Shown here piece by piece: positions 3-22,917 of a stretch of DNA of 23,681 nt (its first letter is position 1; the number at the start of each line of letters is the position of its first letter). The DNA comes from a virus. The notes under the pieces are model-generated. The model had not been told where the DNA came from and searched no databases. It was given only the letters and a program-made list of their open reading frames with translations. The position numbers and the translations under genes were made by a program. The stretch spans positions 1 through 23,681 of IMG/VR virus record IMGVR_UViG_3300044960_000421; one strand, 5' to 3'.

Positions 3-182
3 GCTTGCGGCAGCACGCTGTATGCCAGCCTGATGCAGCGCACCGAAGGCTTCATCCGTCTGCGCTGCGCGGACTGCGAGACGGACGTGCTCCTGGCGCG
101 TTGGGTGTTCGACCTCATCACGCTGGATACCCCCAAATGCTATGACGTGTTAGAGAAAAGAGGGGGTGTGGGGGAGCTATAA
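3..182 (+). CDS. 3' end of a zinc-ribbon protein, cut by a transposon end
   Basis: An open frame enters from the left edge and stops at TAA 180-182. About 49 residues look genuine: a CGSTLY segment, then CADC and a later KCYD, a cysteine spacing typical of small phage zinc-ribbon or treble-clef proteins. The last residues (VLEKRGGVGEL) are encoded by the transposon left end beginning near 149, so the natural C-terminus is lost and the stop codon is transposon-borne. The start lies outside the window and the family cannot be named. It probably belongs to the phage region upstream of the packaging genes. Seen: reading frame, cysteines and junction. Inferred: zinc binding. Confidence 0.5.
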   Translation, partial: ACGSTLYASLMQRTEGFIRLRCADCETDVLLARWVFDLITLDTPKCYDVLEKRGGVGEL

Positions 183-265
183 TCCCCCGCTCTTCAGAGC
201 GGGGATACATGGACTCCTCCACGCCGCCCGGTTCTGGCGGCAAAGCATGGTGAACAGCCATTTTG

Positions 266-274
266 TGGTATAAT
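266..274 (+). promoter_or_regulatory. Extended -10 promoter in the transposon left end
   Basis: TGGTATAAT is a perfect extended -10 box. The surrounding TTTGTGGTATAATCC aligns with TCTGTGGTATACTCC at the start of the complete tnpB on the minus strand (11699-11713) and with TGTGCTATGCT upstream of the third tnpB. The promoter is thus a shared left-end feature. The -35 region (CATGGT, 246-251) is weak. Predicted start near 281, reading through the structured right end at 423-512. Confidence 0.5.
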
Positions 275-422
275 CCTCGTCGGGAACATGGTTTCCCGCG
301 CACCTTGAAACTCGGAGTAGGGGGTTCCACCCGGCAGTCGGGTGGGTAAAACTCTGAACGAACACCCGTGGGAGAGTCTGTGCTGAAACGCCACCTCCCA
401 GATACGGAGTCAAGGTCATTCT

Positions 423-512
423 GGCTCGGACGGAGCCTTCGGGGATGGATAGCGCAACGGCGCTTCCGTGAGAACCGAGAAGCCTTGGACTTACAGTCCG
501 AGGAGTCGTCAC
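423..512 (+). ncRNA. Stand-alone omega-RNA-like right end
   Basis: The 90 bases fold into three short helices also present at 943-1031 and 21625-21538 (minus). Helix 1 is GGCTC/GAGCC (423-437). Helix 2 is AGCGC (451-455) with GCGCT (460-464), where the other copies have ACGGC/GCCGT. Helix 3 is CCTTGGAC (483-490) with GTCCGAGG (496-503), where the others have CCCCGTTC/GAACGGGG. It ends GTCGTCAC. In the intact element this segment overlaps the tnpB stop codon and forms the right end, where TnpB omega-RNA scaffolds lie in characterised IS200/IS605 elements. The following bases (513 onward) would be the guide. Structure is seen; function is inferred. Confidence 0.55.
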
Positions 513-513
513 A

Positions 514-870
514 AGTCGCACTGTCAAGCGAGGCAAGGAGGCCCGGCATTTGCACAACCTCTGGCCCTACGCCCGCTTCCGCTCCCTGCTGGGGTACAAG
601 GCGGCGCTCAAGGGGGTGCAGGTGGTCGCCGTTGACCCCCGCGACACCTCCAAGACGTGCAGCCGGTGCGGGCATTGCGACGGGGCCAACCGCAAGAGCC
701 AAGCCCTGTTTCGCTGCCAACGGTGCGGGTATCAGCAAAACGCCGACCTGAACGCATCCGCCAACATCGCCCAGAGAGCGGGCTCGACGGGCGCGGGCCG
801 CCGTAACACGGCCCAGATTTTGGGAATCTCTACTCTGCATCGTCCCTTCCCGAAAGCCCACGCGCTTTAG
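514..870 (+). pseudogene. tnpB: tnpB C-terminal fragment (element 1)
   Basis: The frame reads TVKRGKEARHLHNLWPYARF and continues through a typical OrfB/TnpB C-terminus: the YKAALKGVQVV segment, the VDPRDTSKTC zinc-finger start, CSRCG and CQRCG cysteine pairs, then NADLNASANIA carrying the third RuvC aspartate. The first two RuvC catalytic residues and the whole N-terminal RNA-binding part are missing, so it cannot encode an active nuclease. It is cut on its left by the tnpB-less element ending at 512. The stop (TAG 868-870) lies in the loop of the right-end hairpin. It resembles the broken tnpB at 22918-23493 more than the two long copies. The upstream half is absent from the window. Confidence 0.85.
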
Positions 871-10070: not shown

Positions 10071-10524
10071 CCCGTGGGATGTGCAAGAGCAAATCGTCCG
10101 CCAGATAGCCAACTGGCCCGATTTAGCGCCGGGCTCGCCTGCTCTGGGCGGGTGGTGGGCCGGATTTGGCGACATCACGCTGCGCGAGTTCCCCTACTGC
10201 GAAGATTGGCCTGCCTGCCACGTCAATATCCTCGAGCTCGTGGACGAGCCAGGCCGACCGGGATTCCCCCTCAACGGCTTGCGGCTGCAGGTCGGGGTAT
10301 ACGTGAGTCTGCAAGAGCCTGACCTGGATGCCTCAAACGAGCGACTATGGCGGCTCGTGATGGCTACTCGAGCAGCGATTACATCTGACCGCACGCTAGG
10401 CGGCCTGCTCAATGAAAAACTGCTAATGCGTAATGTGCGTCAGGTGCCTAGCCCATTGGGCACGCCTATCGTCGGCACCCGACGCATCGAGTTTGAGGCC
10501 GTTATAGTCGAAAATCTGCTCTGA
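10063..10524 (+). CDS. gp37-like tail terminator / DUF1834 protein
   Basis: 153 residues: MASPWDVQEQIVRQIANWPD start, DWPACHVNILELVDEPG, then LRLQVGVYVSLQEPDLDASN and FEAVIVENLL at the end. The size, position after the gpG-like gene and pattern fit Mu gp37/DUF1834 proteins, thought to cap the tail and join it to the head. The TGA stop (10522-10524) is immediately followed by the right end of the antisense tnpB element, so the guide of that element would be read from the last bases of this gene. Confidence 0.72.
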   Translation: MASPWDVQEQIVRQIANWPDLAPGSPALGGWWAGFGDITLREFPYCEDWPACHVNILELVDEPGRPGFPLNGLRLQVGVYVSLQEPDLDASNERLWRLVMATRAAITSDRTLGGLLNEKLLMRNVRQVPSPLGTPIVGTRRIEFEAVIVENLL

Positions 10525-10525
10525 G

Positions 10526-10640
10526 GTAACGGTTCCCCTGACTAGAAGTCAGGGGCTTTCAGGAGCCCTGAAGATGCACGAGAGCAACTCCGAGCCACGA
10601 GGCTGCGTTACGGTCAGCCCCAACAAACGAATCACCTGAG
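10526..10640 (-). ncRNA. Candidate omega-RNA / right end of element 2
   Basis: On the minus strand this covers the last ~30 codons of tnpB and the right end. Hairpins: CCCCTGAC/GTCAGGGG (10535-10555) and GGGCT/AGCCC (10553-10568). GTAACG (10611-10606) can pair with CGTTAC at the extreme end (10531-10526). The copy at 21304-21416 keeps these structures, with changes confined mostly to loops. The guide would start at about 10525 and run leftward into the gp37-like gene. Confidence 0.55.
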
Positions 10641-11694
10641 CGCCATTATGGTCAGCATCCCCAACATAGCCACAGTTCCCACACTCAAAGCGCTTGCCCT
10701 GCCGCTTGCCAATGTGCTTGCAGCAGTGGCAGGTCTGAGAAGTGTAGGCGGGATTGATGGGGAAGACCTGCACCCCAGCCAGAGCCGCTTTGTACTCCAC
10801 AAACCTGCGCAGTTGGTGGAAAGCCCAACTGTTGCTGCGGCGGCGCTCAGTGGAGCTTCTGGGCTGGCTGTTGGTTCGCTCTCGAATGCCCGTCAGGTCT
10901 TCGAGTGCGATAGCCGCGCTCAGGGTTTGAGCCTCCGAGACGATGGCCTTGCTGACCACGTGGTTCACGTGTTTCTGAAAACGTTGCTCTTTGCCCGACA
11001 GCCGTTGCAGCAGTTGACCCGCACGGCGGCGGGTACTGCGTGTGCCTTTCGAGCGGTTCTTCTGCACCATCTGGCGGGTCTTGGCAAAGCGGTCGCGAAC
11101 CTTTGTCACCGCTTTGCCCGACCAGCTTTTACCCGTGGAGGTCACAGCGATGTCGTTTCTCCCCAGATCAACCCCGACGACCTCTTGGGATTCGGCTGTC
11201 GGGGGGACATCCCGCTTGACCTGCACATGGAGCCACAACTTGCCTTTGGAGTCCACCAGCGTAGCGCTGGTGGGTTGAGTACCTTGCAGTTTTTGGAGGT
11301 GGTATTTGGAGAGTCGAAGGTCAACCCGAAGCCGACCCTTGACCGTGCTCAGAGAAGCAGTCTCATCCCGCAAACGGAGGTCAAAGATGCGCGCGTCGTA
11401 GTCCACCGACGTGGGTTTAAACGCCTTAACCTTCCCACCCAACTCTTTTGCGGCCTTGCGGTTCATGCTCACCCGAGCGATGGCCCTTACCGCGAGGTTG
11501 GCGCTCAGTCCGAACCTCTCCCGCACATCTTTGTAGGTCAACTGCTGTATGCGTGCGCTGTTTCTGATGTTCTCAGGCACAGCCGCATGGATGTGGTTGC
11601 AGGCATCCGCGAACGCGACCAGCGTAGACCTCAAAGCAATTTCTTGCTCTGGGGTCGGAGCCAGCCTAATTTTTACGGTAAGCACCTGCTGCAC
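10549..11694 (-). CDS. tnpB: TnpB RNA-guided endonuclease (element 2)
   Basis: 381 residues, full family length. RuvC catalytic residues are D176 (VVGVDLGRND), E265 (IALEDLTGI) and D348 (GDADHNGA). Zinc-finger cysteines are C322, C325, C338 and C341 (TCHCC...CGNCG). The N-terminus starts like other OrfB proteins (VLTVKIRLAPTPEQ). The basic segment QKNRSKGTRSTRRRAGQLLQ precedes RuvC-II. The GTG start is at 11694, about where transcription should begin from the promoter at 11701-11729, so the mRNA is probably leaderless. Known TnpBs cut DNA next to a transposon-associated motif using a guide taken from the right-end flank. All catalytic residues are intact, so it may be active. Confidence 0.92.
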   Translation of the reverse strand: MQQVLTVKIRLAPTPEQEIALRSTLVAFADACNHIHAAVPENIRNSARIQQLTYKDVRERFGLSANLAVRAIARVSMNRKAAKELGGKVKAFKPTSVDYDARIFDLRLRDETASLSTVKGRLRVDLRLSKYHLQKLQGTQPTSATLVDSKGKLWLHVQVKRDVPPTAESQEVVGVDLGRNDIAVTSTGKSWSGKAVTKVRDRFAKTRQMVQKNRSKGTRSTRRRAGQLLQRLSGKEQRFQKHVNHVVSKAIVSEAQTLSAAIALEDLTGIRERTNSQPRSSTERRRSNSWAFHQLRRFVEYKAALAGVQVFPINPAYTSQTCHCCKHIGKRQGKRFECGNCGYVGDADHNGAQVIRLLGLTVTQPRGSELLSCIFRAPESP

Positions 11695-21043: not shown

Positions 21044-21310
21044 GTGGATCCAGAAATGCAACGCATATACGACCGCCTAGAGCGCCTAGAACGGGGCAAC
21101 GAGCGACACGCCGCTATGCTCGATGAGCACTCCAGGCGGCTGGAGGCTCTCGAAGGCTTGCCCTCCGCGTTGGCCGCGATCAACCAAGCCATTGGGCGAC
21201 TCGAGGCCAAAATCGAGGCGCAGCGCCAGTTCTCAGGGCTGATCCAGGCGGTGGTGTGGCTGCTGTTGGGGGGCGTGTTGGCGGCGGGGTTTGAGCTATT
21301 AAAGAGGTAA
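21044..21310 (+). CDS. XhlA-like coiled-coil membrane protein
   Basis: 88 residues; GTG 21044 (GAGAGG eight bases upstream) is preferred, with ATG 21056 as an alternative. Residues ~5-60 are coiled coil (IYDRLERLERGNERHAAMLD; EHSRRLEALEG), followed by a single C-terminal membrane helix (GLIQAVVWLLLGGVLAAGFE) and LLKR. This is the layout of XhlA/hemolysin-type lysis proteins, which work with a holin. The TAA stop (21308-21310) lies inside GAGGTAACGG, the end of an inserted transposon remnant, so the true C-terminus may have been clipped. Confidence 0.65.
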   Translation: MDPEMQRIYDRLERLERGNERHAAMLDEHSRRLEALEGLPSALAAINQAIGRLEAKIEAQRQFSGLIQAVVWLLLGGVLAAGFELLKR

Positions 21311-21416
21311 CGGTCCCCCTGACTGGAAGTCAGGGGCTTTCGGAAGCCCTGAAAGCGCAGCAAAGCACTCCCGAGCCACGAGGCTGCGTTACGGTCAGCC
21401 CCAACAAACGAATCAC
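21304..21416 (-). repeat. Solo right end of element-2 type
   Basis: About 113 bases closely match the right end of the element at 10525-11810, including the last codons of its tnpB (VIRLLGLTVTQPRGS) and hairpins CCCCTGAC/GTCAGGGG (21316-21336). GTAACG (21307-21312) and CGTTAC (21387-21392) can pair. The rest of that tnpB is missing. It cuts the 5' side of the next tnpB fragment and gives the stop of the phage gene before it. Confidence 0.75.
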
Positions 21417-21536
21417 CAAACTCCTTTCCATTTGCTCCGTACTGCCAGAAGCATCCAGGGCGGGCAGTTGGTCAGGGGACGGGACTTCTGGTACATCCAC
21501 CTGTGGTGCGAGTACGACGACCCGCCCACTACTACC
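21417..21536 (+). pseudogene. tnpB: tnpB element 4, middle fragment (left half)
   Basis: One frame reads LLRTARSIQGGQLVRGRDFW, then YIHLWCEYDDPPTTT, a typical TnpB segment just before RuvC-I. It stops at the right end of the inserted element 3 and continues in the same frame at 22918 (GFLGVDLGIVNIATDSDG). The N-terminal third is lost; a solo right end of element 2 occupies its place. Confidence 0.75.
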
Positions 21537-21537
21537 C

Positions 21538-21625
21538 GTGACGACTCCCCGTTCTGAAGAACGGGGCTTCTCGGTTCTCACGGGACGGCCCACGCCGTAC
21601 CCATCCCCGAAGGCTCCGTCCGAGC
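21538..21625 (-). ncRNA. Candidate omega-RNA / right end of element 3
   Basis: Minus-strand helices are GGCTC/GAGCC (21625-21611), ACGGC/GCCGT (21598-21585) and CCCCGTTC/GAACGGGG (21566-21547). The tnpB stop codon lies within (21580-21578). Copies at 423-512 and 943-1031 keep the helices, the first with changed bases in helices 2 and 3. The guide would begin near 21537 and read leftward into the interrupted tnpB. Confidence 0.6.
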
Positions 21626-22723
21626 CTTGGCCAGGATATTGATGGCCGCAGCCACATCCCGATGGAAGTGGCCGCCGCACCCCGAGCAGCGAAACTCCCT
21701 GACCCACAACGGTTTCCGCTCTCGGTGCCCGCACACCGGGCAGTCCTGGCTGGTATATTTGGGGTCTACCCCCACTACCCGCCTACCAGCCTCTTCCGCT
21801 TTGTAGGCGAGGATTTGCAGAAAAGCCGCCCAGCCCGCATCCAGCACTCCTTTAGCAAGGCGGGTGCGGGCCAGGCCGAGGATGTTCAAGTCTTCATGCA
21901 CGATGGTGCCATACTGGTTGACCAGCCTCCTTGCCACCTTGTGGTGGAAGTCTTTGCGTTGGTTGGCGATTTTGCGGTGCAGCCTAGCAACCCGCCTTCT
22001 GGCCTGTTTACGGCGAGAACTACCCCGCTTCTTCCTGGACAGGCCGCGTTGGGCTCTGGCAAGTTTGACCTGGGCCTTCTGAAAGTATCGGGGGGCCTCG
22101 ACCATCTCCCCCTCCGAGGTGATGAGGAAGTGGGGGTTGGTACCCAGGTCTATCCCGATGGCCTGGTCATTGGGGGGAAGGGGCCTGGACTCCACCTCAC
22201 AGGTAAAAACGATGTACCACTGTTCTCCCTCCCGCTTTACCGTTGCGGTCTTGACCTTTCCTTCGAGCGGGCGGTGGAACTTACACTTGACCGAGCCGAT
22301 GCCGTAGATGAGTACCCGCTTCCCGCCCGCCTGGAGTTTGACCCCGGTAGTCCCGGCCTGGGGGAAGGTGAACGAGTCGTAGCGCTCCTTCCCCTTGAAG
22401 CGGGGGTAGCCGGGGGTTTGCCCCTGCTTGACCCGCCGGAAGAAGCCCTGGAAGGCTTTGTCCACCCGCTCGATGACATTTTGCAAAACCTGGGAGTGGA
22501 TGCGCTGGTACTCCGGCAACTCGGCCCGTATCTCCACCAACGAGCGCTTCTGCTCGTAGTAGGTCACGTTCTGGCCTGCCTTGCGGTAGGCCTCCCGGCG
22601 CTCCTGCAAGGCCGCGTTGTACAACTGGCGGCACAGCGCAAGGGTGCGCTCCAGGTCTTTGTGCTGGGGCTGGGTGGGGTACAGGCGGTATTTGAACGCC
22701 TTTCTGTATGTGGTAGATTCGAT
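21578..22723 (-). CDS. tnpB: TnpB RNA-guided endonuclease (element 3)
   Basis: 381 residues if it begins at ATC 22723, which lies seven bases after a strong GGGAGGT. No ATG, GTG or TTG occurs in frame between there and ATG 22798, which overlaps the presumed -10 box. RuvC residues: D192 (IGIDLGTNPHF), E277 (IVHEDLNILG), D356 (HFHRDVAAAIN). Zinc cysteines: C328, C331, C346, C349 (CPVCG...CSGCG). N-terminus TTYRKAFKYRLYPTQPQ and GYPRFKGKERYDSFTFPQ are family hallmarks. The C-terminus (TEPSGMGTAWAVP) is encoded inside the right-end RNA structure. The frame is intact; the start codon is the only doubtful part. Confidence 0.88.
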   Translation of the reverse strand: MESTTYRKAFKYRLYPTQPQHKDLERTLALCRQLYNAALQERREAYRKAGQNVTYYEQKRSLVEIRAELPEYQRIHSQVLQNVIERVDKAFQGFFRRVKQGQTPGYPRFKGKERYDSFTFPQAGTTGVKLQAGGKRVLIYGIGSVKCKFHRPLEGKVKTATVKREGEQWYIVFTCEVESRPLPPNDQAIGIDLGTNPHFLITSEGEMVEAPRYFQKAQVKLARAQRGLSRKKRGSSRRKQARRRVARLHRKIANQRKDFHHKVARRLVNQYGTIVHEDLNILGLARTRLAKGVLDAGWAAFLQILAYKAEEAGRRVVGVDPKYTSQDCPVCGHRERKPLWVREFRCSGCGGHFHRDVAAAINILAKARTEPSGMGTAWAVP

Positions 22724-22793
22724 ATGCGTTACCTCCCATCCAGGTAATGCCGGGCTCGGGGTGCACCAACACCGCCGGGCCGTTTCTATGTAC

Positions 22794-22917
22794 AGCATAG
22801 CACATCCGCCGCCCACTATGCTATGTCCGCCTCCGGCGGACGTGGGGGAGTCCATGTATCCCACGGACTGAAAGTCCGGGGGATTATCGCTCCCCCACAC
22901 CCCCTCTTTTCTCTAAC
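22794..22917 (-). promoter_or_regulatory. Left end and promoter of element 3
   Basis: The left-end hairpin lies at 22861-22882 (loop TTTCA), with an adjoining CCGCC/GGCGG stem at 22828-22842. An extended -10 of the form TGCTATGCT lies at 22802-22794 on the minus strand. The first ~78 bases match 149-226. Predicted transcription start is near 22787, giving a leader of ~64 bases before the ribosome site of tnpB. Confidence 0.5.

Follow-up and report, generated by a model that had tools for sequence, protein, structure and literature searches.

Does a stretch of phage DNA that carries both ends of a tnpB transposon, with no plausible gene between them, still encode anything? The question is raised by positions 150-512 of a virus contig of 23,681 bases from a hot-spring phage; the whole contig was analysed and is referred to as the window. 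In TnpB systems such as ISDra2, the scaffold of the omega RNA (reRNA) is formed by the right end of the transposon, the guide is the right flank, and the target lies beside the insertion motif (TAM). This RNA is normally processed from the 3' end of the tnpB transcript. The initial annotation had proposed that the locus is a stand-alone promoter plus omega-RNA unit lacking tnpB, whose RNA could load onto a TnpB encoded elsewhere in the phage and steer it against a rival transposon.

Anatomy of the element

Positions 150-512 are a complete gene-less IS200/IS605-type element of 363 bases (element 1), which starts with TTAG (150-153) and ends with GTCGTCAC at 512. Its ends resemble those of a tnpB-bearing relative in the same phage (element 3, carrying tnpB-3): window 149-252 is 83% identical to the tnpB-3 left end at 22917-22814 (E 6.8e-24) and 423-512 is 81% identical to 21626-21538 (E 7.2e-19). 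Together with the lack of a plausible ORF in 150-512, this bears out the claim that both tnpB-3 ends and an extended -10 promoter are kept while the gene is absent. The features are as follows.

120-149, plus strand: remnant of the sequence upstream of the start codon of an interrupted tnpB, tnpB-Y (121-152 is identical to the sequence just 5' of tnpB-Y at locus L339)
150-153, plus strand: TTAG, target motif in single copy and expected TAM (nearly universal TTAN start of complete elements; one TTAG in empty sites)
150-252, plus strand: left end containing a subterminal palindrome (83% to the tnpB-3 left end; relatives in phage phiLo and Thermaceae)
266-274, plus strand: extended -10, TGG-TATAAT (register kept in 27 of 29 relatives)
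282-415, plus strand: structured 5' RNA domain with a 5' hairpin, a closing helix CCTTGA/TCAAGG and two inner stems (covariance model, covariation)
422-512, plus strand: omega-RNA core and right end, comprising hairpin A, hairpin B, a terminal hairpin and GTCGTCAC (81% to the tnpB-3 right end; fold z -3.7)
513-532, plus strand: expected guide AAGTCGCACTGTCAAGCGAG, the right flank (TTAN plus 16 nt exact in two tnpB-Y copies of genome G008)
513-870, plus strand: 3' part of the interrupted tnpB-Y, whose right end reaches 885 (99.5-99.7% to L339 and L341 over 373 nt; PF07282)
21538-22916, minus strand: element 3, a relative in the same phage that carries tnpB at 21578-22723 and is a candidate nuclease source (same ends; match to ISDra2 TnpB)

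The scaffold at 422-512 folds at -42.3 kcal/mol, a value reached by 0 of 200 shuffles, and its helices are intact, as had been claimed.

The extended -10 of element 1, TGGTATAAT, lies 7 nt from the first GGG at 282. A sigma-70 scan of element 1 found no -35, so the promoter would be an extended -10 without a recognisable -35, and no terminator was recognised in the element. Of 29 elements whose RNA start can be identified, 27 have a -10 that matches at 5 or more of 6 positions and lies 5-9 nt ahead of the RNA's first GGG (25 at 6-7 nt), against 1.6% for shuffled upstream sequence; related copies are not independent, and the count overstates the number of events, the three size classes being the separate arrangements. 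Core-only, short-stem and full forms all have this register, and the length differences between them amount to whole RNA modules. Some copies (L014, L107 and L072) have no usable promoter. By this layout, in which the promoter stands in register with the start of the RNA, the element has the build of an RNA gene. A transcript would start at about 282, cross the 5' domain and the omega-RNA core and continue into the flank, and its last 16-20 nt, 3' of 512, would be the guide.

The 5' RNA domain

The 134 nt at 282-415 are present in element 1 and absent from tnpB-3. A covariance model built from 25 sequences, among them the window copy, scores that copy at 129 bits. In the 25-sequence alignment 98.0% of cells pair and sliding the partners breaks the pairing, although the structure, being derived from the same alignment, is favoured over slid versions. 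The firmer part is the two-sided changes, which occur in 9 of 40 pairs against 1.8 in shuffles (0 of 500). On this covariation the domain is a structured RNA. No Rfam family matched it at the gathering threshold, and a relaxed E-value gave weak, unrelated matches far below gathering. Mean column identity is 82%.

The model matched gene-less elements and none of the tnpB-bearing loci tested. The domain also occurs in a second type of gene-less element (type II; L034, L075, L282, L298 and others), in which the stem sequences differ and the right end is CCGTGGGAGTGTCAAC, an end that sits behind tnpB genes at other loci. The unpaired stretches AGGGGGUU and GGGUAAAAC are kept in type II, where the flanking stem differs. 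At L034 (5150-5500, minus strand of an IMG/VR contig) the type II element is followed by a tnpB fragment. The core-only forms L009, L044 and L053 lack the domain and still have the promoter in register with the core. As the domain is absent from the tested tnpB loci and from the shortest gene-less forms, it is not essential for every guide. A loose pattern for the domain gave 86 stretches in IMG/VR, mostly chance, and was discarded.

A family of gene-less elements

A boundary search of Thermaceae chromosomes and phages gave 31 complete gene-less elements of 134-510 nt, the window copy included, and five tnpB-bearing elements with the same ends. Element 1 is thus not a lone remnant. The 31 are repeated, have IS605-like ends and lack coding capacity for a transposase, as PATEs do, and nearly all complete elements start with TTAN. 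By BLAST, gene-less matches were found in 18 of 50 Thermaceae genomes; the 5'-domain model matched 20 of 111 Deinococcota genomes, every one Thermaceae, with 22 matches in genome G044. Thermus parvatiensis RL, with four gene-less copies at first sight, has short forms only and was missed by the model. The layout also occurs in Thermus phage phiLo and in IMG/VR contigs.

A further gene-less type is present in phiLo (L028, 15700-16100, minus strand), consisting of a left end, TGTATAATG, a folded stretch and the right end GGAGGAGGTCAC. Small repeats, GGTCAGCC..TATCTTG and TCCGCCCCGCC..GGCGGGGCGG, lie within hairpin loops of gene-less RNAs (L031, L048, L053, L072, L081 and L103) and leave the stems undisturbed; they resemble the SMR-A insertions of haloarchaeal PATEs.

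The joined flanks of ten gene-less elements were used in a search for empty sites. For five chromosomal elements an element-free site was found across the joint (L041 100%, L089 99%, L090 97%, L062 93% and L091 93%). Each has a single TTAG and no target duplication, which makes the right flank a TAM-adjacent guide. Past insertion 3' of a short motif, with a clean empty site, is therefore seen at these five sites and at the target of the window copy in tnpB-Y of G008. TSP4 was dropped as a phage empty site for one phiLo joint, since it matched at 75% and covered no more than about 16 nt to one side. Autonomous elements of 1.73-1.79 kb that carry both tnpA and tnpB (PF01797 above cut-off) and the same distinct ends with subterminal palindromes are present in five genomes (G001, G008, G012, G024 and G044), so the gene-less elements share their ends with a Y1 TnpA element.

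Expected guide and target of this copy

The sequence 3' of 512, AAGTCGCACTG, lies inside a tnpB fragment (PF07282), as the initial annotation had noted. A search for tnpB copies matching the guide beside a flank motif, which it had proposed, gave two exact sites for TTAG plus the first 16 guide bases, both tnpB-Y copies of the Thermaceae genome G008 and each matching the window without a mismatch for 107 bases or more. The right flank, beside a TAM-like motif, is thus the target at an empty site, as in omega RNAs. At L339 a full tnpB can be read without interruption; the 5' half of L341 is partly masked. No exact guide target was found in IMG/VR contigs.

L339 also rules out an unrelated phage ORF as the left flank, since it shows that 120-153 is the upstream region of tnpB-Y. 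Element 1 sits between two TTAGs of one tnpB-Y element of which about 791 bases are missing; two insertions followed by recombination would be the simplest account of the gap.

The proposed steering against a rival transposon holds in that the target is real as a sequence. It is not supported as a general purpose: a tnpB lies in the flanks of 1 of 31 type I elements, this copy, and a preference for insertion into tnpB genes was rejected. The guide points at a rival transposon because the element landed in one; as is general for IS605 elements, the guide is simply the flank of the insertion.

Link to TnpB

The tnpB-3 product matches ISDra2 TnpB (8h1j) with E 1.5e-58, and the D, E and D residues are aligned and kept. 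The scaffold at the right end of element 1 is homologous to the one borne by tnpB-3, and across 12 genomes gene-less cores resemble the tnpB cores of their own genome (0.813, against 0.732 with shuffled labels, p 0.0005). As part of the core doubles as the right end for TnpA, its conservation is not pure RNA evidence. A tnpB-3 relative is present in 16 of 18 carrier genomes and 14 of 32 others (Fisher p 0.0017, uncorrected for phylogeny and with an E-value cut loose enough to include distant tnpBs). A close tnpB was not found in two carrier genomes, some of the genomes being drafts.

Other tnpB-related sequences in the window were recorded. Element 3 also interrupts a tnpB, whose frame, on direct reading of the sequence, is restored if one TTAG is counted as target. 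Positions 10523-10636 and 21304-21417 form an 89% direct repeat, namely the right end of tnpB 10549-11694 and a second copy beside element 3. Element 2 (943-1031) has a right end and omega-RNA core only, without a left end, straight after TTAG, and ORF 919-1590 reads in frame through it. A sister phage contig (G002, L307 and L308; IMGVR_UViG_3300045136_000588) is 99.76% identical over window 3403-23681 and extends about 4.7 kb past the right end; its coverage excludes element 1, and it was set aside as a test of the presence or absence of the element.

Choice between explanations

That a one-off internal deletion of tnpB-3 left a functionless remnant is very improbable. A simple deletion could leave both ends and the promoter region, but the 134-nt domain is foreign to tnpB-3 and covaries, and relatives are present in many genomes and in high numbers (22 model matches in G044); for the family as a whole this explanation is already refuted. 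An ordinary, passive PATE, in which the 3' scaffold is kept as the DNA right end for TnpA and the RNA is not loaded by TnpB, is more serious, since IS605-derived PATEs moved in trans are known (PMC3119063, PMC7290912) and promoterless copies exist (L014 and L107). We nevertheless regard it as unlikely: in 27 of 29 copies, whose lengths vary, the -10 stays 5-9 nt from the point where the RNA begins, hairpins A and B are both kept although they lie upstream of the terminal palindrome, and the 5' domain covaries as RNA.

The 5' domain might instead be the product that matters, as a ribozyme, a ligand sensor or a regulator of TnpA or TnpB, with the 3' core a mere transposon end. Its high conservation (82%), which extends to the unpaired stretches kept in type II, and its occurrence with two right-end types speak for this, but the core-only forms, which dispense with the domain yet preserve the register between promoter and core, make it quite improbable. 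The reading that we consider likely is that 150-512 is a non-autonomous IS200/IS605 element of the PATE class that has lost tnpA and tnpB and encodes a predicted trans-acting guide RNA. The proposed stand-alone promoter and omega-RNA unit is upheld by the conserved family, the register, the same-genome scaffold match and the same-phage TnpB with its D/E/D residues, though not as a device of general anti-transposon purpose. The family of relatives, the RNA domain at 282-415 and the origin of the left flank at 120-153 had been overlooked.

As far as its sequences tell, the gene-less family probably supplies guides to RNA-guided TnpB nucleases whose genes lie elsewhere. The TnpA of an autonomous relative would move element 1, and the TnpB of phage element 3 or of the host would bind its RNA. 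The loaded TnpB would then cut TTAN plus flank wherever the site is empty, and cutting of empty sites would favour retention of the element and its copying via repair. As the flank here is another tnpB, element-free copies of that tnpB would be cut. The 5' domain may stabilise or present the guide.

Relation to known systems

IscB stand-alone omega RNAs and HEARO RNAs are guide RNA loci without a nuclease in cis, a likeness that we offer as a lead; in IscB RNAs the guide is on the 5' side, and Rfam has no family matching the element 1 RNA. The element 1 RNA shares with TnpB omega RNAs the right-end scaffold, right-flank guide and TAM-adjacent target, but differs in that a promoter of its own serves it, tnpB is missing in cis and a separate 5' domain is usually present. 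Work on Geobacillus TnpB reportedly mentions gene-less elements. No gene-less family with an in-register promoter and a dedicated structured 5' domain is described in the literature searched; an earlier mention in the Geobacillus TnpB or IscB work is possible.

In the available portions of two reports, PATEs of Haloquadratum and Halanaerobium have IS605-like ends with subterminal palindromes, lack a transposase and are moved in trans; some arose by core deletion of IS605 elements, and small mobile repeats target them (PMC3119063, PMC7290912). The element 1 family shares this anatomy of ends without transposase. Those portions describe PATEs as ends only, whereas here a promoter precedes, in register, a structured RNA that combines a new 5' domain with an omega-RNA core. 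In the TnpB gene drive of plasmids the guide records the insertion site and element-free copies are cut (PMC11870625); the nuclease there is in cis and would act in trans here.

Conclusions

The 5' domain is an RNA family outside Rfam that occurs with two scaffold types. More tentatively, Thermaceae and their phages may hold dispersed trans-guide sets, in which as many as about 20 scattered gene-less elements would supply guides to one or a few TnpBs. Each would be transcribed separately and carry the dedicated, newly recognised 5' domain, which would work with two or more TnpB scaffold types and may itself be active. Thermostable, compact guides with separate transcription would be of practical interest. 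Should TnpB take up these RNAs in trans, the guide would be the unit that moves and the nuclease a common resource, and gene-less elements would drive themselves into empty sites. Scattered guides would then multiplex one TnpB, a plausible step from single-guide TnpB toward CRISPR arrays.
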